From the NCBI GenBank assembly GCA_001692895.1, contig KV748202.1, positions 1,426,001 to 1,490,000 of the forward strand: a stretch of 64,000 nt of DNA, written 5' to 3'. Below are positions 33,851 to 57,400 of the stretch, one piece after another (the stretch's first letter is position 1; each line of letters begins with the position of its first letter). The notes beneath the pieces are model-generated. The model had not been told where the DNA came from and searched no databases. It saw nothing but the letters and a program-made list of their open reading frames with translations. The DNA comes from Cenococcum geophilum 1.58 (lineage: Eukaryota > Ascomycota > Dothideomycetes > Gloniales > Gloniaceae). Made by a program: the position numbers and the translations under genes.

Positions 33851-34527
33851 TATGGTGTATTATATAGTGTAATATATTATATAAGTGTAAGCTTATATAA
33901 TATATATTATAATCCTTAACGTCCTCCCGGCCGTCGTCCTTATCGTCGCCGAATCTATATATATCTAGTTCTTAGCACTTTTTTAGATAGGCGACGACCT
34001 TCTAACAACTATTTAAGTGCTATATTTTCTGGCAGTGAATATAGACAACCTTTAGGTGGGTTTTACTACGGAGTTTATAGGCAGCAACCTCCTTCCAGTA
34101 TAGATCAGCTGTAGAGCCTGCCATTTAGTAAACGATTTGATTGAAAACACTATACCAAGGCTCGTAATAGAGACGAGCATACCGCTTAAAGAGTGCGATA
34201 AACGGCGTTGCAAATACTGTAGGCGAGCCATCCAAATGAAAGACTCTTCATTATACCGTTTACTAAGTATATGGCCTGTGCAATATACAGTATAAGCCTC
34301 TAAAATACACGTGTAAGTGTAAGCTTATACCCCTAAGCATAGTATATATATTATATCTTATCTTTCTACTTAGCACACTATAGAGAGAATATATAGGACA
34401 ACGCTCTAATATTAGGTTCTAGAGACAATATAGATAGGGTTTGTAAGTCCAGTAAGCTAATGTAAGGGATCTTTATCCCTTACTCGGGCTTGCAGCCCTC
34501 CTTCCCTCCTTATCGGTTCGTCTCTAT
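33851..34527. other. Mixed-composition stretch, unclassified
   Basis: Base composition shifts from RIP-like to ordinary over this stretch. AAGTGTAAGCTTATA occurs twice in the same orientation (near 33888 and 34314), with looser similarity just upstream of each. I could not define an element, a target duplication or a gene. A short pyrimidine-rich stretch precedes the hAT element at 34536. Confidence 0.4.
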
Positions 34528-34535
34528 ACTAGGGT

Positions 34536-35394
34536 CAGACTTGCTATTAAGCAAACAAGCCAAGCCGGAAAGCCTTAGCTTGCTAGCCTGAAACCTTTCG
34601 CACCTAAAGCTGGCTTACTTAAAGGCCTGTTTAATTTTATAGATATTTTAGAGTAATATACAAAATTAAGCCTCCGAGCTACCGGTTTAGCTAAAAAGCT
34701 CCTCCGCAGCCCCGATTTATAGTCATTGTAATATAAGATAGCATAGAGGTAACGTAATAGGAAGTTCGTGTGGCTGAGGGCGTCTATTGAAAGGCTTGGC
34801 ATAGTGGTAGGGAAGGTTTCGGTGGGAAGGCTTTAGTAGAGAGATCCTGCTGTTAACTCCAACAATTAGCTACCAGTTATACCAATCCCGGTGAACTTAT
34901 TTCCTCATCTACTAGATCCTTTAAAGCCCATTCTTAAATAGCTGCGATTATACTATAAAGCAGCAATACTATTAGGGCGAAGCTTCGAGAGACGCGGTTC
35001 TAGTAGATCACCAGCTTCACTAAACGCCCGTTCGTAGTCGTCGCTTATAGCTAGTATAATTAATATATCAAGAGCCATCCATGTGAGCTTCGGCTGAGTC
35101 GTTCGCTAATGGGTGATCGTCTGGTAGTCTTCCAAGCTTCGTATTCGTCTGACGTCGATAGAGCTTTGAGCCACGTGGCTGGTGTATTACCTAAATAGTC
35201 CTGTTTGCTTCATTTGCATACTCAGAAATATCCAAAATCGATTATCTACAACTCCAAAAATCTATCACGAACTTCAGACCTTTACCAAAATTTTATATAT
35301 ATATTTCCTACCAAGCGGGCAAGCAAGCAAGCAAGCAAGCAGGCCCTCTTTTGGCTTGCTGGCTTGCCCTTCGGCTTGCTTAATAGCAAGCCTG
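34536..35394 (-). mobile_element. Internally deleted hAT transposon
   Basis: The ends are CAGACTTGCTATTAAGCAA (left) and the reverse complement of CAGGCTTGCTATTAAGCAAG (right). They are flanked by a perfect 8-bp duplication ACTAGGGT (34528-34535 and 35395-35402), as hAT elements make. At 859 bp it is far shorter than an autonomous hAT (usually 2.5-4 kb) but keeps the transposase C-terminus. Subterminal GCTTGC motifs, including an (AAGC)n run at 35322-35342, are dense near both ends, as is common where hAT transposases bind. Confidence 0.88.
34905..35090 (-). pseudogene. hAT transposase C-terminal (dimerisation, hATC) remnant
   Basis: Minus-strand translation from about 35084 gives a stretch typical of the hAT C-terminal dimerisation domain: MALDILIILAI, then the ERAFSEAGDLL block, then LSKLRPNSIAAL and a YLRMG-like end. 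An in-frame stop falls after IAAL, near 34955. Only about 60 residues remain; the rest of the transposase is missing because of the internal deletion, so this copy could move only with help in trans. Confidence 0.75.
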
Positions 35395-35910
35395 ACTAGG
35401 GTATTGCCATACCTACTCTTTACCATATTGTTCTCTTCCATCGACTCTCCTGTGACTCATGCTCGGATTGCCTGCTCCAGTGATGTCAATGGTTAGGTTA
35501 CTCTTTGGATTGGTTCGGTTTAACCAAAATCTTGAGAGTAACCGGTTCGTCGATTTGATTGGCTCAATTTGGATCGGTTATTAGATATTTTGATAAACCG
35601 GTTATCTAGTAAAACCAGATAGCTCCGGCTACAATACAAAAACGAGCCTCTGCACGAGCCTGTATAAGCCCCTACTGAGCCTTACCCTACGGGGACAAGC
35701 GCTACCCCTAAATAGGGCTAGCTTCTGCCAAGGCCAAAAAACACGCTAAAACACGTAAATAAACACTTGAAAGACGTGTTATCCGTGGCCTGCGTAGCTG
35801 CGCCTTGACCACCTACCCTCTCGGGTAGGTGGTGGACATCCTAATCGCCAGGACACCTCAATCGCCAGGGTTTAAAAAGAATTAATTATATAGCACCACT
35901 ATAGTAATAA

Positions 35911-36286
35911 TTACAAGTCTTCCTGCTGCTTACGCGCTTTATCCCATTCACTATATTCATCCCTAGAGTCATTAGGAGTCTCAGGCTCTAGTGTTAGTAT
36001 TTTAGCCTACTTTTTACGCTTATTTGCGAGCTTCTTTTTATTAGATTTCTTCCTCTTTTTAGCTAGTGAACGACCCTCTGCAACTGTAATTACCCTAAAC
36101 TTCTGTATAACCTTTCTAGCATTAGCCTTCTGCTTTTGGCGTCGCTTATTCTTAGCCTTAGTCTCCTTTAGCTGCCATTTAAGATATTTAAACGCCTGGA
36201 GCTGAATCTCTGCCCCGTATAGATATTTCTGTATAGCCTTATTTAGGTCCTTATTCTCCTATTCCTGCCAATTCTACCTAATGTAT
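35911..36286 (-). pseudogene. Fot1/pogo transposase, C-terminal part
   Basis: This continues the frame from 42632 after the gypsy insertion: a helical charged segment (LNKAIQKYLY, then LKWQLKETKAKNKRRQ), a Lys/Arg-rich tail (KKRKKSNKKK) and an acidic end, stopping at 35911-35913. Three internal stops (TAG, TAG, TAG) resemble RIP changes of CAG. The basic tail could be a nuclear-localisation signal; that is inference. Confidence 0.75.
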
Positions 36287-36478
36287 TGTCACGGAACCCC
36301 ACCGCAGGGGCCTCCATAGGAGAGCCCCGTGCTCTCGCGTACACCTCGCGTACAGCTTATGTCAGCTACGCGTAGGTATATCACCTCCTTACGCCCTTAA
36401 CCCTTACGATCGATCGCGTAACGTCTTGTAGACTCCTCGAATACATACGTCTTATAGCCACTACCCCGTCTCGTGACA
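36287..36478 (+). repeat. LTR (5' LTR)
   Basis: 192 bp, TGTCACGGAACCCC... to ...GTCTCGTGACA. It is the reverse complement of the LTR form seen in the 1-33 kb block. Confidence 0.93.
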
Positions 36479-39400
36479 TTACGTTGCGCCTTTTTACTAC
36501 TAACACCCAGCCTATAACTAATTCTACGTCTCTGTAATACTATAGGCGCTACTAGAAGTAATGTGCCTATAAGTTACCTTACTTTATACTTCTAAGGAAC
36601 CCATAATAGTAAGATAATATTCCTTACTAGCTACTATATTAAACCTAAAGAATAATCTAATACCTACACTTAACCTACGACGCCAATTAATCCCAGGAGA
36701 ATTTGATTTATTAGCCCTAGCCTTAACCCCTAAGGAGATGGACACTAATAATGTCTTATTTTTTATTGATTATATAACTACGGACAAGCAAGCGGAAGGG
36801 CTACTACTTATTAAAATTGAAATATGAGACGCTAAGATATTTGTAAAAATGGTAGTATAAGAACCTAATAAATACTACTGCCTTCTATAGAACTACTACC
36901 TAAAGCTTATATAAGCCGAGATGCGTACTACCTAAGATTGTGATATTATCTAAGACCTATAAGCTCGCAAGGCGCTCGCCAATAATACGCGTTAAGAAAC
37001 TAAAGACGACCTCTGCGTATCTAAACGCGACGTCTAATAGTTAAAGAAGGCTAAGATTGTACTTATTGCTACGGTTACTAAAAGAGAAGGTATAATTAAA
37101 TACCTATAATTTTAGCTTAACGAGTATATTTATAATAACGCTAGATACCTCTTTACTGTATATAACGCCACTTAAGTCTCTATACCCCTAGCAACTTTAC
37201 CTACTTAATGCTTAATAGAGAGTTAGCGCTAAGCAGCCTTACCTAATAGGAACCCCTACTAAAGTAATAATAAAAGCTATAACGACTAAACCTAAGCTAC
37301 TACTATAGGGTCTAATATATGTTACCCTAATCCCCTAGTTTTTTAGGGAGACCGCAAAGAATATAGCCACTAGAAGATATAAATCCGCGAGAAACTAACT
37401 TAGAGCGCCTACCTTTTTCCTATAGAAGACACTAAGATTGGCTATATTATTGGGCGAATAAAGGGTATACTATTTAATAGACTCTTCGCCTAATAGGAGA
37501 CCAATAGCCCCTGGAAGTGGCAGTCCTACTAAGAAGTCCTTAACGATCTTGACCTAATATACCGCGATTATAACCTACTGGCCACTAACCAAGCTAAACT
37601 ACGTGCCCTAAAGATAAGCCCTACTAAATTATTTAATAAGTTCTATATTAAATTCTAGGAATATACTGGAGCCCTCGCCCGAGACGATACTAAAGACTAG
37701 GAAGATCTCCTTAAAAAAGTCACTTATCGCCTTAGTTACGCAGCCGCTAGCTATAACTATAATAATGTTTATAATATGGTAGCAGCTATACGGAAGATTA
37801 AATGACAACTAAATTAGATTGCTACTGTAAACCTCTGCCCGAAGACCTCTCTATAGAAGCCCTCCGGACCTACTAAACCACTAACGCCTACTACCCTAAG
37901 TAACACTACTGGTCCTAATATTAACCTTTTTATACTAACCTTCCTATAGAAGCTACTAGATAGAGAACGCGAGCTACTTTAAAAGCTAAAGCGTTACTAT
38001 AGATGTTGTTAAGAAGGCTATTATAGCTATAGCCTAAACTGCCTAATAGCTAGGTTTAGCAGCCGCTGCCTAATACCTAACCTAGTACCTTAAATACTAA
38101 ATATGTTACTATATACTACTACCGTATAAGATAAAGACGTAATAATAGTAGTAGAGTTGGATATGGAAACGGAAAACGCCAAGTCCTAGCCCTAAGTCGT
38201 AGGTTAGGACGCCCTGACGATAAGGGGATCTATATATTGGCCTGCTTAATAGATAACTTAGTAAAGATAAATGGACGGAAATAGATAGTTTTATCTATAA
38301 TAGGAACTACTGCTAAAAAACAATATAAAAGCCGTTCTATAATTGATTGCGAAGCTACTAATAAATTTATAGATACCTAATTTGTGCGTACTTATAACCT
38401 ACCTACCTTACCCCTTACTAAAGCCCGCGCCCTATAACTTGCTAACGGTAGTTATACCGTATAGAAGATTACCTATATAGTATAACTTTACCTAGATATA
38501 AATAGGCACTAGGAAGAACTTTGGGCCTATGTTATACTACTTGCTAACTACCCTATTATCCTTAAAATAAACTAGCTTGAATAATATAACCCCGCTATTA
38601 ACTAGAAAAAGAGAGAAGTAACCTTTAACTCTAAATACTGTAGAGAGACCTGCCTAGGATATGGCCTAGCCGCCTTTATCTACTCCCTAGGATACTAACC
38701 TAAGGAACCCCTTATTATCCTACCTACGACTAACTGCTACCACGTAAGTGCCGCGGCCTTCTACCGTATAGTATGTAGGAAAGGCTGGACTGTTACCGCA
38801 GCCTCCTAATTATAACTATATAAGCTTAATAAAGAATAGGACTATGTCCTCTATAGTAATAGGATAGATATAATTAACCTTTTAGAAAACGATGCCCCTG
38901 TAGAACTCTATAGACTTTTATCTTTAGACTTTAAGAAGTTTATAAAGCTTAAAAAAGGACTTACTAATGAGGAACTCCGTAAGCTCCTCCCTAAGAGGTA
39001 TTATAACTTTATTAATGTATACTTATAAAAGAGCGTAGATACACTCCCCCTATATTGACCTAATAACTATGCTATTAATATTAAATAAGGAAAAATGCTA
39101 CCTTATAAGAGACCCTACCTAATATTAAAAGATGAACTTCTAGTTGTTAAAAAGTATATTAATAAACACCTTGATAAAGGGTTTATTCGCCCTAGCATGT
39201 CCCTAGTAGCTACCCCTATCCTCCTTACTAAGAAGCTAGGAGGAGGTATTTAATTCTACATTAACTATAGAGGACTTAACGCTATTATAATTAAGAACTG
39301 ATACCCCATACCGCTTATATGTAAGACTCTTAAGCGGCTTAGCTAAGCCAAAATCTATACTAAGCTTAATATTATCGCCGCCTTTAACCGCCTCCGAATA

Positions 39401-42400
39401 TAAGAAGGTAACGAATAGAAAACCGTATTTATATTGCGCTTTGGCCAATTTGAATATACTGTTATACCCTTTAGCGTATATAACGGCCCAGGCAGCTTCT
39501 AAAGCTATATTAATAACGCCTTATAGGACTACTTTAACGACTTCTACTCTACGTACCTAGACGATATACTTATTTATAGTAATAACCCTTTTAAGTATAC
39601 CGAGCATGTTCGAAAGGTCCTATAGCGCCTTAGGGATATAGGACTTTATATTGATTTAAAGAAGTACAAATTCTTAGTTATAGAAGTAAAATACCTTAGA
39701 CTAATTATTACTACTAAGGGTGTCTATATAGACCCTAAGAAGGTACGCACAATTACCGAATAGTAAACCCCTAACTATATTAAAGATATATAAGCTTTCC
39801 TTAGTTTCGCTAACTTCTATTAAAAATTTATATACAACTTCTTAGGTATTATAGCACTACTTATAGCAATGATATAAATAAAGGGCCTTTTTATAAAAGG
39901 AAGAAAAATACATCTATATTTTATCTGGATGCCTAAATATAAGAAGGTATTCTAAGACCTTAAAGATGCTTTTACTAAAGCACCTATTCTAGCTTACTTT
40001 ATACTAGGATGATAACTTTATTTTAAGACTAACTCCTTAGACCACGTTAACGCAGGCGTCCTCTTCTAGATGGGTGACGACGGTCTCCTCCACCTAATTA
40101 CATTCTATTTATCTAAGCTTATACTATAAGAATATAACTATAAGATCTATAATAAGGAACTTCTCGCGATTATATAAGCGTTTAAGGAATTTTAATTAGA
40201 ACTCTTTTTAGTAGAACCTAACTAGCTAACTAAAGTCCTTACGGATTATCATAACCTTAAGTACTTTATAACTATAAAATAGCTAAACCGACGCCAAGCA
40301 CGCTGGAATAAGTTCCTCTTTAGTTTTAACTTTAAAATCGTATATAGGCTAGGAGTATAAGGTACTAAGCCTAATAGCCTAACACGCCGCTTATAAGATC
40401 TTCCTTAGTCTAAAGATGACCCCCACAACCAGTTCCAATAATAGACAATCCTAAAAGCACGGAATTTGGCCCTAGGTATGCTACCTACGATAGAGCTAAC
40501 TGTACCTTAGCTCTATACTATAGAACTAGAATTACCTCCCGAAATTAATAAGCTTATTACCATGGCATATAATACCTTTGTTAACCCATTACTATATTAA
40601 CTTATTGCCGTAAAGACCGCCGGCACCTATACGCTGCTGACTAAACTTTAAAGCTTAGGCTAGATTAATATAGTAGCCTTAAAAGTAAAAGAGAATAGGC
40701 TCTATTATAGAGGCCGTCTATTTATCTTTAACTTAGAAAATTTATAATGGTAACTAATCTAAATGGCCTATAACCTCTAATTAAGCGGCTACCTAGGCAG
40801 AGGAGGAACCTATAAGCTTCTTAGCCGATACTACTTCTGGCCTAAAATAATAGACTTAGTTAAACGCTTTATAGGCGCCTACTACGGTTATAAGCGCGCT
40901 AAGGCCTTTAATATAAAGTACTAAGGACTACTGCATCCTCTACTAGTACCTATATAACAATGGGCAGATATCGCTATAGATTTCGTTATTAACCTACTAC
41001 CCTATAAGTGACATAGCTATACCTATAAGAATATCCTTATGATAATATACTAACTTATAAAAGAGCGCCACTATGTCCTAACTAAAGGCGTAGCCGTTAG
41101 CGACGTTACTAATGCCTTTTTTCGCGAAATTTATTGATTATATAGGTTACCTGACTTAATTACGTCCGATTAAGGTATATAGTTTAGCTCTAATATATAG
41201 AGACAAATCTACTAACGCCTTGGTATCTCCGTTAAGATATCTACATTCTTTTACTACAAAACTGCTAGGTAACTAGAAAACGCTAATGCTAGCATAAAAG
41301 CGTACCTATAATAGGTAGTCGCCTATAGTTAAGATAACTGGGTAGATTATCTCCTACTAGGTGAATTTATAGTAAATAACTATGTCTTAACTACTACAGG
41401 ACTTACCCCGTTCTTTATAAATAAGGGATATTACCCCTAATCCGGTATAAAACTATTAGAACCTATTAATAAGAAACTGCCATATGGAAAACGCCTTAAG
41501 ATGCTACTTACTAACTAGTATACAGACTATATAAAAAATCTACTTAACTACTGTAAGGGAGAAATGGCCTAGGCTTAAGCAAAGCAGGCCTACTTCGCCA
41601 ACCGTTATAGAACGCTACCACCGGAGATGCGTGTTGGCGACTAGGTATAGCTAGATGCACGCAATATCTCTACGTAGAGGCCTATAAAGTCACTTAATTA
41701 TAAGAACCTCGGCCCCTACCTAATTAAATGAGTTATTGACAGGGGAGCCGTATATAAGCTAGAGCTCCCGCCTACCCTAGCCACCCGCGGGATATAGCCT
41801 GTATTTTACCTATAGCTACTATACCTTCATTAGCCTAACCCCTTACCGGGGCAGATATAGCCTAAACCCCCACTAGTACTAATTTAAGATAAGAACGAAG
41901 ACGAGAACCATAAGGAGTAGACCGTTAAATGAATTATTAACTTTAAATACTTTAGTAAAGGTAAAAGACGACGGCTCTACTATAGAGCTATATATATAGG
42001 ATTCGACATAAACTAGCTAGAATGGCAACTATAGGAAGTCTTTAAAAATATAAAGGATTTAATTAGCGACTTTTACTACGCGAACCTATAGAAACCGGGC
42101 CTAAGTAGAGATTTTATACCTAATCCTCTATAGGAGCCTTTATAGAGTTAAACCGTTATATATTATTACGTAGGGGCAAATTACCGTTAGATTGCCGTTA
42201 GATTGCGGCAAAGTATAATTATATAACTAGAATATTGTTGAGATGTCCAGGAACTTTAACCGGCGGTTGAAGTTGTCTAATTGGTTGGATTCTTAGATGC
42301 TAAGCCTTATTATATAACGTTGTTTTAAGCCTTTAGTAATACCCCCCTTTTCTTCTTTTCTATACCCTAAGTATCCCTTTTATATGTATATAGTAACCAC

Positions 42401-42439
42401 AGCATCGCCGGAGCTCCGCCTCTATAGGAGGGGGGGTAG

Positions 42440-42631
42440 TGTTACGGAACCCCACCGCAGGGGCCTCCATAGGAGAGCCCCGTGCTCTCGCGTACACCTC
42501 GTGTACAGCTTATGTCAGCTACGCGTAGGTATATCACCTCCTTACGCCCTCGACCCTTACGATCGATCGCGCAACGTCTTGTAGACTCCTCGAATATATA
42601 CGTCTTGTAGCCACTGCCCCGTCCCGTGACA
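42440..42631 (+). repeat. LTR (3' LTR)
   Basis: 192 bp, TGTTACGGAACCCC... to ...GTCCCGTGACA. It is preceded by the G-rich run TAGGAGGGGGGGTAG conserved beside other copies. A short open frame at 42384-42584 lies across it and is not a gene. Confidence 0.93.
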
Positions 42632-43879
42632 TGTATGAAGCTAGGTCGCTTGCCTGCCTAAGTGTTTTTAGTGTTATAATATTAATAGTTATTAACTATA
42701 GATCCTTCTCTAGTGTAGCCTTACGTGGTAGAGGTAGTTTATTAAGTACCTTCTTTGGGTTAAATGGGTAAAGGCCAGTCTCTGTGAATGCCGCTTTAAT
42801 TATTGCTTTCTTAAATGTGCGTTTCCGTACGTCAGGAATAAGGTAAAGAAAATCCATCTTATTAATCTTAAATGCGCTAGTGTGGTAAGCCTGGTTTAGT
42901 GCTTAAATGGCTGAAACACAACTATATTAAGCGGCTGCATCTTATGTATAAGATGTAAGGGAAAGCAGGCTAGTAAGATCTTACGATTAATACAGTATTG
43001 CGTAAATTCTAGCGTCTTGTGAGAGCCGTGGCCGTTAAGAATAAGGAGTTTGTATACACCCTTTGTCCGATTTTGCGTATAAAGATTAAAGTATTTAATC
43101 CATTTAAGCGCGATCTCGTTATTTATATACGCCGTATTACTAATACCGATAATGTAGCTATCGGGAATCACCGTCTCTAAGTACCAGCGTATCTGGTAGG
43201 TCTTACCTTTAAAGATAATAAGAGGTGGGATAACGTGGCCGTCTGTGTAAATTGTCTTTGTAACCGTAACAGATTTACGGCTAAATGCCTTACCTACCTC
43301 ACACCGTGCTGCCTTATTATAAATAATAAGTACCTTCTCTTTCTTTCCTTGCCCTATACGTACGCCTAATTCGTCCATATTATATATATCTTTATGCTAT
43401 ACGGCGTACTTCTTAATGTCCCTCCCTAACGCGTTAAACCACTCTTTTATAAGAACAGGATCTTTAGCGGCCTATCTCTTTGCCTCTTTAGGTACCTTAG
43501 TCCTAAGCGTAACCTTTTGGCGCTTACAGAAGCGTGTAGCCCATTTGGTGCCGCAGGTAGGTGGTGGTTTAGTAGGATCTATATGACGGTCGGCAAGGAT
43601 ATAATTAACGTGTCATTCGAGTAGAGAAATGCCAGGGCGTTGACTAATATCGTTTAGCCGTGTTATCCATAGCATAATGCCTTCTTCTTCGGTGTCGTTA
43701 AGTAGCCTATTTGTTGCAGGTCGATCTAATCAAGACGTTCGTCCAGCAACGCGATTCTTGACGCGACCGTATAGGTCAGGGTTCTTACGCGTTGCCTCTG
43801 CAATTGAGGGATATTCGCCATTGCAGATAGCTTAAGCAAGGCAAGCGACCTGGTTTTCAGTAGACAGATAATCGCTCAT
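42632..43879 (-). pseudogene. Fot1/pogo transposase, N-terminal and DDE part
   Basis: The frame starts with ATG at 43879 (MSDYLSTENQ). It runs through a CENP-B-like DNA-binding region (RKNPDLYGRV, about residues 30-45) and then the DDE_1 catalytic region, open as one 160-codon piece at 42896-43378. The first catalytic Asp lies in NMDELG. The second site reads ILNGHGSH and the third QPLNIVVF, where the family has Asp, so both look like Asp-to-Asn changes. Each fits a C-to-T change at CpA on the plus strand, as do about seven TAA/TAG codons in the frame (five before 43380, two after 42896). Family role: cut-and-paste transposition at TA. Inactive here. Confidence 0.85.
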
Positions 43880-44186
43880 ATTGGTGGTTGTGTAGTAATT
43901 GAATAATTGAGAAAGTTGATTAATTATGGCGATTGAGGTGTCCTGGCGATTAGGATGTCCACCACCTACCCGAGAGGGTAGGTGGTCAAGGCGCAGCTAC
44001 GCAGGCCACGGATATTTGGTTAATCTGGTTTAACCAGTTCTATAACCGGTTCAAGCCTCAAAATTGTATTTTGGATTGGTTTTGGCCTCATTCCTGAAAC
44101 CTAACCTAACCGTTGACATCACTGGCCTGCTCCCTACAGTACACCTGGGCAGTATGCCTTACAGCTAACGCCCATATTTAAAGCTA

Positions 44187-44560
44187 GGGGCTCGTTCGGT
44201 TACAAAACCGTCAGATTGAATATGAACTGAAAGTCCGGCAGAAAGGACACGTTCCTTCCTAATTTGTTACGCGTCTATAACTTTAACGAAAGCCTCTGTA
44301 TTAAACTAGAATCTGTAATAGGAGCTTCGAGCTACATATTAAAATGACGCCGAGAGCTCTATTTCATAGGCCAGATATAGTAAAGTTGCCAGCCTTTTAG
44401 AGTGTTTTTTGGGCGGTGAAAGGAACATCAACAATTCTGTGGCTCGGTTCTGATTCTGAAGAGTTTAACCGAACGATTGCCTCATAATTATATTTGAGCT
44501 CCATATCGGTTAAATATGGAGCCTCCATATTGAATATGAAGTTGTCACCGAACGACCCCC
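44187..44560. mobile_element. Possible MITE with about 17-bp terminal inverted repeats
   Basis: The left end GGGGCTCGTTCGGTTAC pairs with the reverse complement of the right end, GGGGGTCGTTCGGTGAC. Further internal similarity (GAATATGAA motifs) lies near both ends, and CCATATTGAATATG/AAATATGGAG palindromes lie near the right end. The G-rich start recalls PIF/Harbinger MITEs, but the adjacent triplets (CTA and AGA) do not form a target duplication, so the boundaries or the class may be wrong. Confidence 0.4.
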
Positions 44561-44682: not shown

Positions 44683-45977
44683 TTATCCACTTCCCTTTGC
44701 TGGTACCGCCCTCTGCTTGATTCCGGCTACTTTTTTCTTCTGCTTATCTCTTTCCTCCACATTAGTATTGATATTGAAATGCGAGCTCTTGATCTGCTCG
44801 AACATTTGCCCAGCCGTAATCCCTTTGATCGGCGTCTGAAAATCGCCAGTGATTGACGTAGTCAAATTGTCCGTGTCTATCGTTACCTGATCATGTGCGC
44901 GGAGAACAAAGACAATAGAATAACGATATTTCGGATCCTTTTGACCAGAGGGTTGTGATGGTGGAGAAGGGCTTGGAGGAACGCCATAAGACCGCACCTG
45001 ATGACCTCCTGCGCGGTAGCGGAAGTTTGAGAGACGCTCAAGCTGTCGACCTACAAGTAAAGATGCTGATGGTTGTTGATAGGTTTTCTCAATCGGGAAC
45101 CATGATCTTGAGGGAATGTCCCAGACCTCTAAGCCCGGAGTGGCCCCCATGACCATACTGAGGAGGCCAAGATCGCTGTGGGCTTTTAAGGTAGTAAGTG
45201 AATGAACGGAAAAGAAAAGTGAGGGTTGAGAGGTTGAGCAAGGTTAGACATAGAAGCATGAGCGAGTAGTTGGAATTGTAAATAACGATGAATGGAAAAT
45301 AAAAGAAAACCCTGGGACGAAAAGGTTATGTCGCACTTACGTTCTGCAACAATTTTAGCTTCCTCACCTTCATACCGAAACAGCCTTAACATAGTCTGTG
45401 TTTTGTCCTCTTTCGTCTCCCCTAACCGTTTACACGGCCCCACAAACCTCCTCAACCCGCCCTCGCCCTCTCCTACATCCATCTCCAAACTCTCACTCAC
45501 TCTTCCCAGCATTCCGTCCATTAGATCCCCTGCCGCCGCCCAGCACTGCTTCGCAGCATCCCTTAGAATCTCCGGCGTACCCTCGACAGTTCGAATGGTA
45601 ATGAATTCCTTTTCACCCTCAATCCTCGACCAACCTTCCTCAGAGCCGAGCTTTGTCTTCCAGTTCTCTTTCTCCTCAATTGGCTGGTCGAAAAACGTTT
45701 TGCTAGACTCAAAGAGATTTTCGAAGCCTTGCTGGAGTGGGTGTTGCGACGGGCATTCTGAGCTAGGCACGGGGAATGAGACCGTGGCCCAGCCTTGAAG
45801 TGCTAGATTTGGGGTATGCTTGGACAGAACTAGAGGAAGAGAAGAGGGCCGTAAAGGCGGCCGAGGGTCAATGGGGAAATTTTGGGTTTGAGCTTTTGAT
45901 TTGGGACGTAGATGTGAAATAATGCGGGAGAGTAGAGGGGCATGGTTTGAGGGCTGCGGAGATGTTTCTATCGCCAT
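44683..45977 (-). CDS. 2-oxoglutarate/Fe(II)-dependent dioxygenase (isopenicillin N synthase-like)
   Basis: Two exons, 45977-45341 and 45182-44683, with a 158-bp GT-AG intron, give 378 residues. Splicing restores the iron-binding motif across the junction: His214-Ser-Asp216 in PHSDLGLLS, then His273 in AGGHQVRSY, and Arg299-x-Ser301 (RYS) for the 2-oxoglutarate carboxylate. The spacing fits the 2OG-Fe(II) oxygenase fold. The N-terminal half has the family's FFDQPIEEKENW-like region. Such enzymes hydroxylate, desaturate or cyclise small molecules; the substrate cannot be told from sequence. There are no clustered biosynthetic genes, so a secondary-metabolite role is not supported. The C-terminal tail (KQKKKVAGIKQR) is basic. 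It is the first host gene beyond the transposon zone. Confidence 0.85.
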
Positions 45978-46325
45978 AATGTTATATAGAGAAGTGATGC
46001 AAAGCGAATAGAACGTTATACTGTACGTAGTGATAGAGAGTTGCTCAGTACTGAAGTTCGAGTGTCAAGGCTGGAGAATAAAGTTGGCGCCCGCGGGTTA
46101 TCTCATAAATCATACGCTCCGTAGAATTTGGTTACGGGGCAGGGAAAGCACGGGCATTCGGCTCCCTATCACCCTCAAATTCTCCCTCGAGCGTCTAAGA
46201 GCTTATGGGAGTCGTTTTGGTATAAACTAAATGTTTTAAAAATCGAATTTTGCGTATTTCTATGAGCCACGTCCTACCTACCGGAGTTGTTATATATTTT
46301 ATTAACATATCTATATAAGTGTATA
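45978..46325. other. Upstream region of the dioxygenase gene
   Basis: 348 bp between the dioxygenase start codon and a MITE. It presumably holds the gene's promoter; no motif stands out. The plus-strand frame at 46030-46230 shows no coding character. Confidence 0.4.
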
Positions 46326-46469
46326 CTATCCCATCACCCGACAGGGTACTACGTTATCGATAAGGGTGTGAACCGTGCATATAACACCGAGGAACTGTAC
46401 TCAATCCATGCCTCCTTATTGGCCAAATTCTTATCGATAGCGCAGGACGATTGACGGGTCATGGGATAG
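46326..46469. mobile_element. Mariner-type MITE, 144 bp
   Basis: The ends CTATCCCATCACCCG and the reverse complement of CTATCCCATGACCCG are flanked by TA (46324-46325 and 46470-46471). TATCGATA lies subterminally at both ends, giving looser inverted similarity over about 50 bp. The right half shares an ATTGGC...ATTCTTATCGATA stretch with the MITE at 56176-57306, so the two are probably one family. There is no coding capacity. Confidence 0.75.
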
Positions 46470-46797
46470 TATTTTTACAATAACTGGACGTTATAAAAGG
46501 GTCGAGATACGGCAGTGAAAAATGAGATTTTTGGTATATTTTGACGCTCCGTTACCACTAAAGCTAGACCCATACGCTCTCAGACTCGGTGGAGAATTCG
46601 TTGGTGATAAGGAGCAATATGCCCGCCGGTGCGCACCAACGGGTCTGATTTATGAGATAACCAGCGAGTTAAAGTGAGATGTATATCACGTGATGATGTA
46701 ACATAGCCTCGACATACATAGCCCCTGTTGACGTCGTTCGTGGTCCAAGCCACGACCCGGATATTTAGCGTCTGGAGAATGATATCGGAGGCTGATT
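46470..46797. other. Intergenic stretch, nothing recognised
   Basis: 328 bp of ordinary composition between a MITE and a Mutator-like element. It contains a CACGTGATG site. The minus-strand frame at 46580-46948 crosses into the repeat and is not credible. Confidence 0.4.
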
Positions 46798-46807
46798 CGC
46801 TATAGCA

Positions 46808-47591
46808 CGGGGTGCAGCTCGCAGGGGTCACGGAAAAGTTGAACGGGGTCACCGATGGGGATCGGCAAAAGCTGAACGGGGTCACCGATGGAGCGCCGGA
46901 AAAAGGTCGCCACACTTTTACCCATACAGAACACGCATCGGTAGCCACGATTTACCTTTAGCGACCGCATGCACCAAATATGCGGTGCATATACCAAGCA
47001 TATGCATATATAACTACAAGATACGCATAGCAAATGAGAATATATTGCAGTGGTTAAATGGCTTGTTAGGAGTGCATATGCTAAGCATATACATAGCATA
47101 TACAGGTACCACAGTGCAGCCTACCTTTATAGAATATTAAGTATATTGCATATGCTAAACATATACTATAGTGTAGCCTATCTTTATAGAATAGTAAGTG
47201 TATATACATTGCATATGCTAAGCATATACAAATATAATAATACAGCCTACCTTTTAAAGAATTAGTAGGGTATATGCTAAGCATATACTAAGCATATACA
47301 AATACAATAGCGCAGTCTACCTTTTAAAGAATTGGTAGGGTATATGCTATGCATATGCTATAACAACTTAGCTCACATATTTAATACTATAGTTAGTGGG
47401 CTGCATATATAGGGTATATAATATTCTCTACTTATTAAATACTTTAAATTATAAAAAAATATGTTTGTATATGCGCTACATATGCATAAAGCTCAGCGGG
47501 CTCAGAAGTTGAGCGTGGTCAGAAAGGTTATGACCCCGTTGAACTTTCTGACCCCGCCGAGTTTTTCCGTGACCCCCCCGAGCTGTAAGCC
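46808..47591. mobile_element. Non-autonomous Mutator-like element, 784 bp
   Basis: The left end (GTGCAGCTCGCAGGGGTCACGG) and the reverse complement of the right end share CAGCTCG(C/G)(A/G)GGGGTCACGG and a following CGGGGTCA. Both sides are flanked by CGCTATAGCA (46798-46807 and 47592-47601), a 10-bp duplication within the 9-11 bp range of Mutator-like elements. Its core GCTATAGC is self-complementary, so part of it could instead belong to the inverted repeat. The left end carries a short tandem duplication of a 33-bp GAACGGGGTCACCGATGG-containing unit. No transposase is present. Confidence 0.6.
47073..47350. repeat. Tandem repeat of about 62-75 bp, four units, with TGCTAAGCATATAC palindromes
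   Basis: Units start near 47073, 47147, 47210 and 47272. Each has ATATGCTAAGCATATAC followed by an AG(C/T)CTACCTTTTAAAGAATT-like segment. The motif is close to self-complementary. The array sits inside the Mutator-like element and accounts for the short open frames at 47050-47284, which are not genes. Confidence 0.7.
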
Positions 47592-47652
47592 CGCTATAGC
47601 AACCTTCACCATGGAGCTATATTGGTGACGTACATTCATCCTCTTTTCTCCC

Positions 47653-49029
47653 CTATTCACGATCTCTTAGCCACTGAGGAACTATCGGCTTAATTCTAAC
47701 GCTTTTATGCCTCCCTTCTGCGTCTTGTTCACCCCATTGCATTCCAAACTCCATGCCCGGCCTCCAACTACCTCCCTCTGCACTGACCTTCATATCGGTC
47801 ATCATCTCGAGCCTACAAAGCGCCAGTCCTACATTGCTAATGCCTGCAAGAAATTTACCTGTGGCGCGGCCTTTTTTCACTGTGCCATCTTCATCTAGTT
47901 GTTTGATATCTGTGCCGGCAGGAATGTGCTCATTGTGTACTGGTTCCCCAGTTTTTTGGAGACTCCAATTAGGATCATAACCCGCCAATAGCAATGCTTC
48001 AGACAATTCCTCAGTTTTGTGATATAACTGCACGGGTAAAATTCTTTTCCTCACAACCCCAGTATGTTTCGTCCGGATCGTCAGTTCCTGACCTACGTAG
48101 CATCCCTTCCTAAAGTCAATCCCATGCATAAGATCGATATTTGATTCCATAGGGAGCGCGCTCGCAGGGGGCATTTCCTTCGGTCCCTCAGGTATGCCGT
48201 ACAAATATCTTCGTATATGGTAAGATGTCGCGTCTACAATTGGGAACTCGTTCATTTCCCCGGACGATATGAGGTTCGAGGACTCCGACTTTGGAAGGAC
48301 AATACGCCAGCCAAAGCCGGGAGCGCGAGGGTCACAAATAGCAACTGTGTAGGAGCTGGGATCGCTAGCGGAATCATCTAGGGCTGGCCAAGGTGGCTCA
48401 GAAGCCCGGGCCTCGGATTCAGTAGCGCCATTATCCTGCCAGCCGGCCCATACACTGGCCTCGGCCTCCTCCACCAATCGAATCTCAATTTTAGACCTCA
48501 ATTTGTGCCTTTTCAAATGCTTGAATAGATTCCCGGCCTCGGTGCCATCCACTTCGATAAAGCAAGCCCATCCTGATGACCCCTGAGATGGGTCCGGGTA
48601 AATGAAAGAATCCCACATTATGCGGCCACGCGCATCGAGGAAGGCAGAGTACCACGGCGTAATGACCTTCGGGTTGACATTATTGGTAGTAAGGCCCTGT
48701 AGGAATTTGGGAGCATCTGTGCCGGACAGGTATATCAAGCGACGGTGGAAAAGCTCGGCGATGCCGGCGGGAGGTAGGGATTTTGGAGGACCGGGTTGGT
48801 TGAAATATGCGCGACGAGATGACATAGTCGCATTACTGCTTGGTCGGCAGTACTTGAGAGTTGGCTTAAAGGCGTTATAACGATAGGAGGCGGCTGGGAA
48901 GGTGGCATTACGCCGAGCGCGGGGGGAGATTGCAGTGCTGAATCGAGACCGGGCAGTAGAAGCGCGACGAAGGCATCGAGTGCATACGAAGGGGGTTGAC
49001 GAGCTATAGAAAGCCATGGTTATAGCCAT
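47653..49029 (-). CDS. IBA57: IBA57-type mitochondrial iron-sulfur assembly factor (CAF17)
   Basis: Single exon, 458 residues. The protein belongs to the GcvT/YgfZ folate-binding family. The signature KGCYVGQE is at residues 308-315, preceded by the MHGIDFRKG context, and the N-terminal region (LIYLSGTDAPKFLQGLTTN, about 98-116) matches the family. An Arg/Ser-rich, acid-poor N-terminus of about 70 residues fits a mitochondrial targeting sequence. IBA57 works with ISA1/ISA2 in maturing [4Fe-4S] clusters for aconitase and lipoate synthase in the matrix. There are two close ATGs (residues 1 and 5); I kept the first. Upstream it faces the pseudogene at 49458 head to head. The length is usual for filamentous fungi. 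Confidence 0.93.
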   Translation of the reverse strand: MAITMAFYSSSTPFVCTRCLRRASTARSRFSTAISPRARRNATFPAASYRYNAFKPTLKYCRPSSNATMSSRRAYFNQPGPPKSLPPAGIAELFHRRLIYLSGTDAPKFLQGLTTNNVNPKVITPWYSAFLDARGRIMWDSFIYPDPSQGSSGWACFIEVDGTEAGNLFKHLKRHKLRSKIEIRLVEEAEASVWAGWQDNGATESEARASEPPWPALDDSASDPSSYTVAICDPRAPGFGWRIVLPKSESSNLISSGEMNEFPIVDATSYHIRRYLYGIPEGPKEMPPASALPMESNIDLMHGIDFRKGCYVGQELTIRTKHTGVVRKRILPVQLYHKTEELSEALLLAGYDPNWSLQKTGEPVHNEHIPAGTDIKQLDEDGTVKKGRATGKFLAGISNVGLALCRLEMMTDMKVSAEGGSWRPGMEFGMQWGEQDAEGRHKSVRIKPIVPQWLRDRE

Positions 49030-49457
49030 TGGAAGGAGGTAAAGAGAGTCGATGGGGTAATTATGCGAGCTATGATGGAGACATGGAAGCTCTGGGGTTC
49101 AAAGTTTGCATCATCGGCTTTGTCGTCCTTGGCACCTCCGCGGCCATCTGTCATCCCCTCCAGAGACGACTCCACCCGCTAATTTACTTCCATTGAGTGC
49201 TATAGCTACTGTCGTTCCTTATAACTCTTCAGTAGATTCCTATAAAAGCTTCTAGAAATATGCTTAATATGCGAGAGTTCTACCTTGCCGTTCACTTCAG
49301 CTCAGAACACCTCAAATTGATGATTGGCCCAATCTGTGAACAGCCACAATAGCTCCTTAGAGCTGAAACTCACAAGCCCTGGAGGCTTAGAGGCTTAAAC
49401 AACGTCAATTCACATCCCACCGGGCGGGTCAGGTGTCTTTTCTTCTTCTCTCGATTT
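49030..49457. promoter_or_regulatory. Divergent upstream region of IBA57 and the membrane-protein pseudogene
   Basis: 428 bp between two divergent starts. It should contain the IBA57 promoter; it includes a pyrimidine-rich CTTTTCTTCTTCTCTC stretch just before 49458, typical of fungal 5' leaders. No specific binding site is assigned. Confidence 0.4.
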
Positions 49458-50675
49458 TTGTATACTCATCAGTCTTCTAGAAGTCCGGTCTACTTCATCT
49501 GCTTGCTTGTCCTCAGCGCACTTTTCCATAGAGCCAACTCTTCAGTCCTCAACACAAGTACAACAATAGCTAGCTCCCCCAGCGCAGCTTCACTGGCCGC
49601 GACTTCCATAACTGGACGATGGACACTAACACCTTTGAGTCTACCAATCACTTCAGTGCCGCCTGATCCGCGAGGAATATCCCGCGTCAGCGGCTTCTAC
49701 GGACCTGGTACTCGGGCAGCATGGTCCTTAACTCTCGCAGCTTCATGGTTTGGGCTACCTAGCCACCCCAAGCTAGATTCGACCTGAACACTTGGATATA
49801 CTTGCTAGGGACGGACTGGGCAGCGGTTGACCTTATCCACATTCTCGTTCTCTGCAAACTTTTAAAGAGGAGCAATGCTAGCTCGGAAGTCTTCGATGCA
49901 GAGATAGGCTCAATTGGCGCGGCCTTCTCGATCGCCTTCTAGGGTACCGCGCATGCTCTGAAGCAACTGATTATCTGCTTTCAGCTCCAACGTGTTCCTA
50001 GGCAACGGGTGGGGACCATAGCCATCGGACTCCTTCTCCCGACTGTCTCGCCATGTGTCGTATTCCTCGCTGCCGACTTTGCCAAAGTCCCCGCGCTGTA
50101 TTGGCGCGGTATGGACGCTGATGGCCATTCCCTATACCCTCAGGTCTCTTGTTTAATAGGAGCCTGGTACTTAATAATCGCCCTCCTCGGCGCCTTGTAT
50201 ATTTTATTCCAGGTACTATGCGATCCTCCAAGAAACACATCTAAGCAATTAGCTACCTCTTTACACGACCTCTGGTCTTGCATATCCCCTTACATTGGCC
50301 GGTCAGTAAAGACATTACTCGGCCTAGGAATCTTCCTTATCATATTATTCGCCATAACAGACATCCAGTGGATACTTTCCGCAGCTATTTCTACCTTTCT
50401 CAATCCTGGCCTACGCCTCGTACGCGTACTGTTTCCTTCCAGCTGTACTTTTCATGAGCGCCTGCTACGTCACCAGAGCATATCTCACGTTCGGGTCCGC
50501 TCCTGCGCAGTCCCGCTTCTTCATGCCCTGTGCCCCACAGTCGGTTTTGGACTCCGATCAAGCTTTTGCTCTTCCGGGCGGTCTAGTTACGTTTTTTGGC
50601 GGTAAAGTTGCATCGTCCTTTCTCCGATCCGGGAAACAGAAACGGGGGAGTAGGGGAATCGTGTACGGCCGCTAG
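49458..50675 (+). pseudogene. Broken multi-pass membrane-protein gene, family unknown
   Basis: The gene begins at 49458 with a signal-peptide-like start (MYTHQSSRSPVYFICLLVLS) and at least six later hydrophobic segments, including around 50020-50090, 50145-50215 and 50310-50370. The protein-like reading changes frame near 49770 (into a frame with NTWIYLLGTDWAAVDL) and again near 50402 (into a frame with ILAYASYAYCFLP). An in-frame TAG lies near 49940 before GTAHALKQ. No GT-AG intron of plausible size explains either shift. It is either a recent pseudogene or three sequencing errors. A Pezizomycotina-specific membrane protein is likely; I do not recognise a named family. Confidence 0.65.
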
Positions 50676-51033
50676 GGCCGCTAGGGTAGCTTTTCGTGCC
50701 AGATGGTCAACGCAAGAATTCATAGCAGCGCATTCAATGCAAATGGATATTTCTTCATCCCAGCACCCACCCTAACATCTCGCATCAAATGAAGGGCCTC
50801 GAGCCGAGGGTAAATGCGAGCTGGTGGAGTTTCTATCTTAGGAAGATACATCGTGTATATATAACCTCAGGGGAGGAGAGTGGTTCTTCCTAACTTAAAA
50901 CCTATCTGATGCAACCACCCATTCCAGCCCTCACCCAGCAACCCCAAACCCTAAAAATACCGCAACTAAACCCTCAAACCCAGGTATCAATGCTTCCACC
51001 CATCCCCACGTTAAAAAAAACCCACTCCACCAC
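50676..51033. other. Intergenic stretch between convergent genes
   Basis: 358 bp between the pseudogene's end and the DCP2 stop codon, presumably 3' regions of both. CGGCCGCTAGGG-type sequence repeats once near 50666-50685. Confidence 0.4.
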
Positions 51034-54000
51034 TCACCTCTTTCCCCTCGCTACATCCTCCAAAAACCCGAGCAAAAACGACTTATCCACCGAACTCATC
51101 CCCACCCCATTCCCCTCCCCCAGCACCCCCGCAGCCTTCCCCNCCCCCTCGCCCAACCCCCCAACAGTCGCACTCGCCCCAACCGGCGCCCCATCCCCAA
51201 TACTGCTAATCCGACTCCGACTTGCCAACGCCGCCGGACTGCCCTGGACACTGCTCTTGTCCGGCAGCGGACTGACCGGACTCCTGATCCCAGACGTAGC
51301 CACGCGCGGGGTACCGGGCGCCATTCCCGCGATTCCTACGGCGGCAGCGGCGGTGGTAGCAGCGGTAGTGGTGGTGTTAGTAGCGGGCTTGCTAAACAGC
51401 GACAGCAGCGCCGACTTCTGGTCCGAGGGCAGCGACCCGCGGCGGTCGAATGCCGACGCAGGGATATTCTGGATAGGCGTCGGGACAGTCGCGGCGTGGC
51501 GGATGAGCGGAGACGAAGGGAGAAGCGCGTGTGCTGCCTGCAGGCCTTGCGGACCTTGCGGACCTTGCGGCGGGCGGCGCAGGATCTGCGGGTGGAAGGG
51601 GGACGGCTTGGGCGAGGGGGTTAGGCGGGGTGCCTGGATGGGGGGTGTGCGGGACGGGCTGTGGATGCCCTGGGACGCGGTAAGGGGCCGCGAGAGGATG
51701 GAGATGGGTGGGAGGGGCTTGTTTTCTAGCTNCATGGAGGGTGAGATGCCTTCGTGCGTGTGTCCGTTTGTCTCGGGCTGTCTTGTCTGCCGCCGGACGG
51801 TCTCAAAATCGGGGGCGTTCAGCGGACCAGAGACAGTTGCGGAGGTGAGGCTTGGCTTGCGCGGCTGTTGGTGGTCCATGATGCCCAGACGAGGTAACTT
51901 CGCTGTCAGGGTTGCCGTTTTGTGACCCACTCGCGGAACCATACCCTTTGCAGGTGACGGTTGTCTAGGAAGCCCAGGACTTGGGTGCGCTGCGAGTTCG
52001 ATTGGTTCGGGTTCTAAAGCATCTGGGCGAGCCGCAATTGAGGGAGGGGTTGAAATAGACACGGATGGGGAACGGAAAAGGTTCAGAAGTGCATCCTGGT
52101 GTGCATTTCTAGGCTTGGGTGCTGCTGGTTGCGTTACTGGAGATTGATCGCTGAACACAGCACGCGGCGATTGGACTGAAGATATCTCGAAAGGTAATTG
52201 TCCCGATGACGGAGAGACTGCTTCTGGAATATGAGATGTTTGGGAGGCTTGCGGTACGTTCGCGTTACTGAATCGATCGGCGAATTGCTCGATCTTGGGA
52301 TTTTTTGGTGTAGACGTTGATTTATCGCTGCTCTTAAACGCATTTAAAAGAGTCAATGTATGAGCCGTAAGTTTTGGAGGCGGCAATTTAGACGCCGGAG
52401 GAATTGCTGGACCATGCAGACCAGGAAATTGTGGAGCTTGCGCAAATTGTGGATCACCGGTCCGTTGATATGGCCGTGGTGTTTCCTGACCGAAGGATGA
52501 TGGGATATTTGGGCCGTGTGACGAGGAGAATACTGGATGTTGAAAATTTGCGGGTTGTGGCGGCCGGTATGCCTGATATTGGGTATGGAAACCATTTTGG
52601 TGTTGGGCAGGAAGATATTCAGATGGCTGCGGGTGATGTAAGTTTGGAGGGAGTGGTTGCGAGGAACGACCAGGTGAGAAAGGAAGCGCTGGCGGAGATG
52701 CCATGCTCGAAAACGGTGGTGGTTGAGGGTGATGGTGATGTGGGCTTCTGGGTTGGGCAGGTTGAGTATTGATTTGCTCGAAGGATCTCACTGGAGGATC
52801 GGCTGGTTGGGCATGAGAAGGACCGGAGCTACCCTGGAGCATTGCTAGAAGTGGATTCTGCTCTTTCTGCTGGGCGACCGGGACTGATTGTTCTGAGGGC
52901 ATCGGACGACCAACACTCAACAGACGCTTCAACTCTGCGGCCGGATCCGGTGTGGCTTCTGCATAAATAGATACCTCAGGCAGGTTATCTGACGCTCTAT
53001 GGCTACGGCTGAGATTGGCCAGAAGCTGAGTGGAATCATCTTCCTCTGGAGGTTGTTTTGGAAGGGGAGGTCCCTCATCCGCTGTGAGAGTTCCTATCCT
53101 AACTGCGTCATCGTCCGCTTCAGTTTCTTCCAGGTCAGTCTCAGCACTGACGGGGGGTGGTGCCAAGTGAATTCCTCTTTCAGCTTGCATTCCGTCGAGT
53201 TTGCGCTGTTGTTTAATCCAGTGCCTTAAGGGCCCCAAGAAAGGCGCGACCATGTAGAACATATTATCCTTCAGTAAATCTTCTCCATTGCCTTGCTGCT
53301 GATGTTGCTGTTGTCTATTCCTCTTTAGCGTTGGTAAATTTGAAAGCTTGTACCATGAAATTTTCTGAGTTGAGGTCAGTAAGGACATCGGGTACAGAGC
53401 AACCCTATACTAACGCTGATCTCTTTGCGAGTTCTCGGCTCAAAATAAGTATCCATTGGCACTCCTCTGAATACATAGAGACGCATATGTTGTTCCCTCA
53501 TTGATACTTCGATGTACTTCATATCTGACTCATCCCTGACGAGACCGGCTTCCTTGATGTCAAAACCCGTCTCTTCATAGACCTCTCGTATAGCGCAATC
53601 AAGGTCCTTCTCATCCTTATTTATTTTGCCTCTTGGGAAACTCCATTTTGCGCCCTTTTTCCAGCCTTTTACTAAAACGGCATGATCCATGGTATCATTA
53701 AGCATTATCGCGCCACGCACCGGCACCCGTGTCTTGTAGGCCAGGAACTCAGAATAGGCCTGGGTATGATGGTAGGAAGAGAATTCGGACAGCAGAGGGC
53801 AATGCTGAAATATCAGGAGGCAGAACTTCTTGAGGTTCATGGAGGGCAAGGTGGGGTCGAGGGGTCGGATGAAGTCCTCGTAGAACCATTGTGCCTCTTC
53901 GACTTGGAAACATATTCGCTCAACGGACTCGAGTTCTTCTTGGGGTAGGTTGATGATGAAGCGCACGCATAGGTCGTCCAGCCCTTGTTTACAGCATTTG

Positions 54001-54194
54001 TTAGCATTGGGAGTATGCCGAAGATAGGCCACAAGTGTCGCGCGACAAGACCGGCAGGCCGATGTGATCAGCGGGCTGTGCAGAGGGCGGGGAGAAGCAG
54101 TGAGACGGGACTAGAACTGGAGTGGGACCCAGGTGAGTAGGGGAACGGGCCGTGTGTACTTACAGTCAACTAGCTGCATCTTTGTCTCCATCAT
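51034..54194 (-). CDS. DCP2: mRNA-decapping enzyme catalytic subunit Dcp2
   Basis: Three exons, 54194-54164, 53983-53415 and 53364-51034, with GT-AG introns of 180 and 50 bp, give 976 residues. Exon 1 codes only for the first ten residues; splicing restores QLVDWLDDLCVRF, the family start. Domains: helical N-terminal regulatory (Box A) domain about 11-95, Nudix hydrolase about 96-225 with an exact Nudix box G129-x5-E-x7-REVYEETGF ending at 151, Box B (KISWYKLSNLPT) about 201-212, then a long Pro/Gln/Ser-rich disordered tail that ends FLLGFLEDVARGKR. Dcp2 removes the m7G cap with Dcp1 in cytoplasmic mRNA decay. Ns at 51143 and 51732 leave two residues unknown. A second ATG follows the first immediately. 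Confidence 0.95.
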
Positions 54195-55020
54195 GTTGAC
54201 CAGTGTCCTGCAGCATATCCTCGCAAAACACGTATCGCGATCGGAAAGGGCAGCTGCTGAGGAGCGGAGAGAGCAGATAGCAGACGGTCTAGGTCGCGGG
54301 AGATCAGTGACGAGAACCCCACAACCACGTAAGCTTGCAATGACGATGGCGGGTTGAATAGTCACGCTGGGGACGGGAGTTTTTGGTGGTGGTGGTGGTA
54401 GTGGATAGCTGGTGTACCTCAGCACCCGCGAGAACGCCATGAAAAGCGCCACAAGTGGCGGTGTGGCTGCCAAGCAGTGGCGAGTGTTCTCGGTTGGGCG
54501 AGGCAGCACGGGCGGATGACGCCGACTTGCATGATTCTCAGCCGTTTGGCTAGCGGTGTCGGCAGTGTGGCAGTGTGGTCAATCCAGCTTCTCCCCAAAA
54601 ATCAAGGCATGACGGCCGATCCCGTCACCAATCCCATCACCCATCCCAATTCCCAATCATGGCCACCCGAAATAATAAAAGGCCTATCGCTGGCCCATCC
54701 TTTTCCTTCTTTTACCTTTGTACTCTACTTCGCTGTTGCAGTCGCTGACTATTCATAGCAGCGCGTTTCGCTGAGACGCCCGTTTCAGAAATTCCGGAGC
54801 CGACCACTCGCTGCCAACCACTCTCAATTCGTCTCAAAACAGAACCGCATTAAACCGTTAACCCGAAAAGAAACATCCTTCACCCAAATTCTTTAAAAAG
54901 AGACTGACTACTTGACCTTTGGAAATCTCTACATTCCTATCTTTCACTTTTAAAAAAGCAACGTTTGATCTACTCGTCAACAATTCCACAAATCCTCTTC
55001 AACACAAGCTAAACACACAA
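54195..55020. promoter_or_regulatory. Divergent promoter region, DCP2 / DUF4112 gene
   Basis: 826 bp between two divergent start codons. It contains a CCACCACCACCACC-type microsatellite near 54385-54400, AATAATAAAAGG at 54671 as a possible TATA-like site, and an A/C-rich leader before 55021. The open frames here show no coding character. Confidence 0.4.
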
Positions 55021-55965: not shown

Positions 55966-56175
55966 GAGAGTTGCGGAGTGTGGAAAATTGGGCTTTCCGA
56001 CTGCATCGTTCATAGCGACGGCGTTCTAGTGACGGCGCGATTCTTCTCTTTAATTATAATCCTCAATTGATACCCTCAGAACGACATGGCGACACTTCTA
56101 ACTTTTCTTAGCATGGTAGATGCTCTGTGCAGATAGCAATCGACCAAAAATTTACGTATTCCTATACTAATTTTA
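55966..56175. other. 3' region of the DUF4112 gene
   Basis: 210 bp before a MITE, probably including the 3' untranslated region (TTTAATTATAATCC near 56051). Nothing else is seen. Confidence 0.4.
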
Positions 56176-56235
56176 TCTCTTAACCCGCTGGCGTCCACGG
56201 GGTAAGTGGTCCGTGCAGAACACCGAATCTAAACC

Positions 56236-57219: not shown

Positions 57220-57400
57220 TCTAAACCATGCGAAAAGTTGATTACGTTAATTTAATTGGCTGATTCTTATCGATAATGCGTGGACGAATTTCAGCGGGTT
57301 AAGGGATACGTGAAAATACATTCAAGCAGGCCCTTAAGTCACTTTCTTAAAACTAATTCCTCAAAAGATGTAAACACTAATCTTCCAGCTATCCCTCTCT

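Follow-up and report, generated by a model that had tools for sequence, protein, structure and literature searches.

A nest of five mobile-element insertions at four nesting levels was found at 34461-44163 of the 64-kb stretch of DNA analysed here (the window), and transition divergence ranks its three inner layers in the reverse of nest order. The nest is genuine and the order of insertion is certain. Taken as a whole, the reading that ordered insertions and a burst of the gypsy family were followed by RIP-like mutation, copy by copy, is given a probability of roughly 0.93. The first arrival was a solo LTR, which then took in a hAT MITE and, in a separate event, a second hAT derivative; a Fot1-like element moved into the MITE at a TA, and a Ty3/gypsy element came last, into the Fot1-like element. 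This last arrival would stem from a burst of near-identical copies free of the stops seen in it today. RIP-like C to T changes (CpA above CpG) would have arisen afterwards in each copy, with a heavy toll on the gypsy interior, which is long and high-copy, and a much lighter one on the LTRs, the Fot1-like element and the MITE. The mutagen is probably RIP itself, acting after insertion.

Architecture of the nest

The outermost unit (34461-44163, + strand) is flanked by the duplication GCTAA, with the left copy at 34456-34460 and the right copy at 44164-44168 (+ strand). It is broken into three pieces (34461-34535, 35403-35477 and 44133-44163) that together read TGTAAGGG...CCTTACA and measure 181 bp, this length being what is left once the inserted elements and the second TSD copies are subtracted. 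Two hAT elements lie inside it. The second hAT derivative (859 bp, 34536-35394, - strand) is delimited by ACTAGGGT at 34528-34535 and 35395-35402 (+ strand), and the hAT-type MITE (35478-44124, + strand; pieces 35478-35781 and 44015-44124) by the 8-bp duplication GCCTGCTC at 35470-35477 and 44125-44132 (+ strand). Since both are placed side by side in one LTR, their relative order is not fixed by nesting. Within the MITE, a TA at 35780-35781 and again at 44013-44014 (+ strand) encloses the Fot1-like element (35782-44012, - strand; pieces 35782-36286 and 42637-44012). This element is in turn opened by the gypsy element, with TGTAT at 36282-36286 and 42632-42636 (+ strand), a 5' LTR (36287-36478), an internal region (36479-42439) and a 3' LTR (42440-42631), all on the + strand and each LTR of 192 bp. 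The terminal matches are 22/23 for the hAT MITE TIRs, 86/86 for the Fot1 TIRs and 183/192 for the gypsy LTRs (TG...CA).

With inserts and second TSD copies set aside, the MITE measures 414 bp, the Fot1-like element 1,881 bp and the gypsy element 6,345 bp, the sizes given by the original prediction. The three nested pairs of duplications that it had placed at the element ends were all recovered, with the six junctions exact to the base, and its argument that nesting alone sets the order of insertion, without any dating model, is upheld. It had also described a three-level nest. The inner three levels stand, but the description was incomplete, as at least one further level (the solo LTR) lies outside them and a hAT derivative sits beside the MITE. 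The classes assigned to the three layers (hAT, Fot1 and Ty3/gypsy) are supported by the TSD lengths, the termini and matches to DDE_1, RVT_1 and Integrase_H2C2.

Identity of the inner elements

The hAT MITE combines an 8-bp TSD with CAG-type TIRs and has at least 40 scored matches in the genome. Both of its ends are shared with a sister MITE family of about 782 bp (L102), and 23 other places match the L102 query at 90-97% over most of its first ~395 bases. An ABC-transporter-like frame (by a reading of the frame) follows the TIR in L102, and gene capture by the hAT family was considered and rejected: the frame is flank, because the other full-length matches end at about base 395 and the remainder matches L102 alone among the 40 scored. 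The second hAT derivative shows an 8-bp TSD, TIRs and hAT transposase homology. Its ends match as CAG(A/G)CTTGCTATTAAGC, and its relatives (full-length rows) start at query base 4-8, matching its boundary (base 7 corresponds to 34536). What is left of the C-terminal dimerisation domain of a hAT transposase (PF05699) lies at 34956-35105 on the - strand, with an E value of 2.4e-5 and 24.4 bits against a cut-off of 21.4.

In the Fot1-like element both a TA target duplication and TIRs are present. Its transposase, on the - strand, is interrupted by stops, and a stop-free stretch matches DDE_1 (PF03184, E 1.5e-19). At what are presumably the catalytic Asp positions of this transposase (42899-43396, - strand), two read Asn in the window copy (LNGHGSH and PLN).

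The gypsy element is bounded by a pair of LTRs, with TG...CA as their ends, and by a 5-bp TSD, and its internal region carries 163 stops in the pol frame. With the stops read as X, RVT_1 is matched at 39080-40060 (E 6.4e-18), upstream of an integrase zinc-binding stretch (Integrase_H2C2) at 40781-40921, which was recovered from a stop-free piece with an E value of 1.5e-5, exactly at the cut-off. The stop-free pieces of the reverse transcriptase gave no Pfam match; altogether, three of the ten pieces given to Pfam matched above or at the curated cut-off. Inspection by eye of 36479-36540 for a primer binding site revealed no obvious tRNA-type TGG start.

The outermost unit

The MITE is surrounded by DNA that is also repetitive, and the locus L010 holds a relative of this surrounding repeat with a single GCCTGCTC. 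A search with L010 as query gave 713 first-look candidates, of which the best 40 were scored and 12 places were fetched (L089-L100), the L010 place itself among them. These are units of 258-265 bp, TGTAAGGG...TTACA or CTCACA, surrounded by exact 5-bp duplications in 11 of the 12 (L097 is without one), and the window unit is a short variant of 181 bp. Over 176-177 aligned bases it differs from them by 12-20 transitions and 12-14 transversions, in a sample that, having been found from L010, may not hold the nearest relatives of the window copy.

A further locus, L101 (G000:C42:664300-668800), shows an LTR-interior-LTR-interior-LTR tandem of the same family, with a 2321-bp match at 99.2%. Because three units surround a shared interior there, the outer unit is taken for an LTR and its copy in the window, at the outermost level, for a probable solo LTR. 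Instead of an LTR remnant it could be a small independent element from some other class with 5-bp duplications, for which relatives consisting of single units with 5-bp TSDs (11/12 sampled) are equally expected. This alternative has a small chance, as it is opposed by the TG...CA ends of the unit and by L101, where the three tandem units lie about their interior as in LTR-interior-LTR.

The locus L090 has an LTR of the outer family sitting within a copy of the gypsy family; in the window it is the gypsy copy that lies inside the outer LTR. The two nestings are opposite, and both families were therefore active over overlapping times.

Mutation spectrum of the gypsy family

Comparison of the window gypsy element with 19 other copies gave 347-402 transitions over 3956-3981 aligned bases. 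Transversions numbered 0 in 14 of these copies, 1 in four, and 32 in L064, whose BLAST match lacks the final 129 bases and which was excluded from later counts. Another set, of 19 loci picked by LTR similarity, yielded 2984 transitions as against 12 transversions over 32083 bases. The two sets were taken as the best out of 2031 and 1541 first-look candidates, respectively, so that older members could be missed. The 5' and 3' LTRs of the window copy differ at 9 sites, all of them transitions, placed in CpA (5), CpG (3) and CpC (1) contexts. At sites where one or more of 19 copies retain a C, the T/A share is 0.68 for CpA, 0.36 for CpG, 0.06 for CpT and 0.04 for CpC. C-to-T transitions in repeats with a preference for CpA, as RIP produces them, are thus what is found; with the polarity (C before T) assumed, this is the RIP spectrum. 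RIP depends on a sexual cycle and on methyltransferases of the RID/DIM-2 type.

In the pol frame, 22 stops are fixed in all 19 copies, close to the value of about 20.8 expected from saturation (beta-binomial fit to the variable sites); an intact source therefore suffices, and the stops need not have been inherited as a set. A perfectly star-like family is not fully supported. The spread of pairwise distances (20.2) exceeds all of 200 free shuffles (at most 17.8), and the leading eigenvalue (0.0734) lies above the maximum of 50 free shuffles (0.0732). When the shuffles keep the mutational load of each copy within its strand class, the spread is marginally above 200 of 200 (20.20 against at most 20.19), and the other two measures are ordinary, with the leading eigenvalue reached in 37/200 and the closest pair in 44/200. 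The gypsy copies thus appear nearly independent, and a slight shared history is possible. Among the 19 copies, the window copy (36479-42439) ranks first in C-to-T load (313) and last but one in G-to-A load (147), which represents a mutational strand bias.

Distribution of RIP along the elements

The gypsy LTRs are much less mutated than the interior. For CpA, the mutated share is 0.24 in the LTRs (14 sites) against 0.68 in the interior (405 sites; rank test over sites, 5e-8), which places the LTR load at about one third of the internal one. For CpG it is 0.085 (40 sites) against 0.36 (428 sites; rank test over sites, 5e-11). The sample for this contrast comprised 21 LTRs from ten copies chosen by interior similarity together with the window copy (L084 being without LTR); the boundary profiles drawn from copies chosen by LTR similarity are biased to little-mutated LTRs and are not its basis. 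Inside the element the CpA profile is flat from 37.5 to 41.5 kb (0.61-0.73). Among ten other gypsy copies, nine LTR pairs could be compared, with 4-21 transitions each; transversions were 0 in five pairs, 1 in one, and 6, 6 and 12 in three with ends left unaligned by BLAST.

These data bear on the timing of mutation. Alternatively, RIP might have struck the gypsy copy before its move, so that an element already dead was mobilised in trans by an intact relative. Such a history would fit a youngest layer that is the most mutated one, LTRs that differ at only 9/192 sites around a heavily CpA-depleted interior, and the slight excess structure among the copies. It is nevertheless quite improbable, as the mutated sites vary between copies, the 22 fixed stops correspond to saturation alone, and the sparing of the LTRs is common across copies, so that the window copy is not singled out. 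RIP-like mutation after insertion remains the preferred reading.

A spill-over of RIP from the gypsy element into the flanking Fot1-like sequence was rejected. Window-specific CpA changes there amount to 2/28 on the left and 16/92 on the right, with no distance trend, against a mean of 0.68 in the gypsy element. Two MITE copies of 405-430 bp (L015 and L016) are strongly CpA-mutated (0.43-0.86), and six other MITEs are not; both lie close to the length limit of ~400 bp quoted for RIP in PMC4522978. In the same paper, one element of M. graminicola is described with a RIPed interior yet identical LTRs, and Z. tritici MITEs are stated to be less affected by RIP in PMC9970103.

It may tentatively be proposed, with considerable doubt, that RIP falls by element and region and not by age, the gypsy interior being heavily struck, its own LTRs about three times less (CpA), with no visible spill-over. 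If this were general, RIP would recognise or spare the edges of repeats, LTR-based ages in RIP fungi would be wrong in both directions, and nests combined with transversion counts would offer a usable replacement clock.

Unfilled related sites

The genome used for comparison (177 Mb in 162 contigs) contains the window, and the unfilled sites described here are related copies elsewhere in this same genome, not the orthologous locus. For the MITE, nine other loci were compared, taken from the best 40 scored of 59 first-look candidates. At the position of the Fot1-like element, a single, uninterrupted TA is seen in seven of the nine; of the other two, L017 is without the right half and L018 ends before the site. 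For the Fot1-like element, nine other loci were fetched (best 40 scored of 49 candidates) and seven were tested, L027 and L028 being fragments that were left out. All seven carry one target-like 5-mer (TGTAT, TGTAC, TATAT or TATAC) at the position of the gypsy element. The MITE site is empty, with one GCCTGCTC, in all 12 sampled relatives of the outer LTR (L089-L100).

The relatives also show duplications of their own. Among the nine MITE loci these are exact over 8 bp in four, 7/8 bases in one, absent in one and with an end not placed in three. TA is found at both ends of 5/7 Fot1 relatives, the other two having one end unplaced. Ten other gypsy copies include seven with an exact 5-bp TSD, one with 4/5 bases, one with none and one with no recognisable second LTR. 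Throughout, each element has uninterrupted relatives that its outer and inner pieces match from one end to the other.

Chance duplication is no serious rival, because 8+5 bases match at ends fixed independently by the TIRs and LTRs, with a probability of about 4^-13 by simple arithmetic; a scan of the genome for the GCCTGCTC pattern (1481 + 1520 matches) was uninformative. Junctions that are assembly joins, making the nest an artefact, have a negligible chance: high-copy repeats are the usual setting for misjoins, and the gypsy (2031 first-look candidates) and outer LTR (713) families are of this kind, but five independent and exact TSD pairs of class-typical lengths (8, 8, 5, 5 and 2) at exact ends, together with the unbroken relatives, speak against misjoins as they do against chance.

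Genomic setting

The nest had been described as lying at the edge between AT-rich repeats and genes, and this is borne out by GC content and RIP-type dinucleotides in 2-kb bins, as well as by the Pfam genes to its right. From 1 to 34000 the bins have a GC content of 0.27-0.38 and RIP-type dinucleotides. From 44001 on the GC content is 0.43-0.58, with a composite RIP index below zero in 9/10 bins and of +0.11 in one. Genes with Pfam matches appear from about 47.7 kb on, namely CAF17-like (47656-49029), DCP2 with NUDIX (53379-54032), CTU2 (59931-60950) and PTM1/GOST (61774-63231). A weak, sub-threshold match to DIOX_N lies at 45189-45977, and two of the seven frames to the right of the nest (45189-63231) had no Pfam match. 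Just right of the nest, an inverted-repeat unit (44187-44560) has arms of 19 nt that are 89% complementary; no clear target duplication was seen around it by eye.

Nest order and divergence

Measured against its nearest relatives, the MITE shows 10 transitions in 386 bases (L011) and 13 in 414 (L010), the Fot1-like element 165/1878 (L026) and 142/1865 (L020), and the gypsy element 8.7-10.1%. Transition divergence is thus about 2.6-3.1% for the hAT layer, about 7.6-8.8% for Fot1 and about 8.7-10.1% for gypsy; the outer LTR stands outside this inversion. Transversions are 2/386 (L011) and 3/414 (L010) for the MITE, 10/1878 (L026) and 11/1865 (L020) for Fot1, and 0-1 in about 3970 bases for gypsy. 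They place the gypsy element as by far the youngest, in agreement with nesting, and rank neither hAT nor Fot1 as the older of the two. The youngest element can therefore be the most mutated one, and plain mutation counts would misorder the layers, a warning that total divergence is unsafe for dating transposable-element copies in RIP genomes. With its certain order, the locus provides a calibrator and a test bed for the action of RIP at repeat edges.

Comparison with known systems

The MITE resembles other hAT MITEs in its 8-bp TSD, CAGTG-type TIR, length of 414 bp and lack of a transposase. The Fot1-like element, with its TA target, TIRs, DDE_1 transposase and length of about 1.9 kb, resembles the Fot1/pogo group of Tc1/mariner. 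The TIRs of Fusarium Fot1 are roughly 44 bp; those of the window element are longer (86 bp), and the window copy is broken by stops. As a Ty3/gypsy family under RIP, the window family is comparable to crapaud of Podospora anserina, presented in PMC10787394 as an LTR family of high copy number that has seen both bursts and RIP. It differs from crapaud as described there in its short 192-bp LTRs and in the almost complete lack of transversions among the sampled copies.

Nested transposons are common, and nested RIP-mutated clusters in fungi are already known from PMC4522978. There, in the RIP-marked genome of Mycosphaerella graminicola (Zymoseptoria tritici), clusters of 2-7 nested elements with TSDs are described, with a caution from the authors that ages estimated from LTRs come out too high under RIP. 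The present nest differs from the clusters described there in that every level is matched by an unfilled relative within its own genome, that the middle levels consist of hAT and Fot1-like elements, and that transversions are used beside the nest order. The structure is of an ordinary kind, and its proof is unusually complete.
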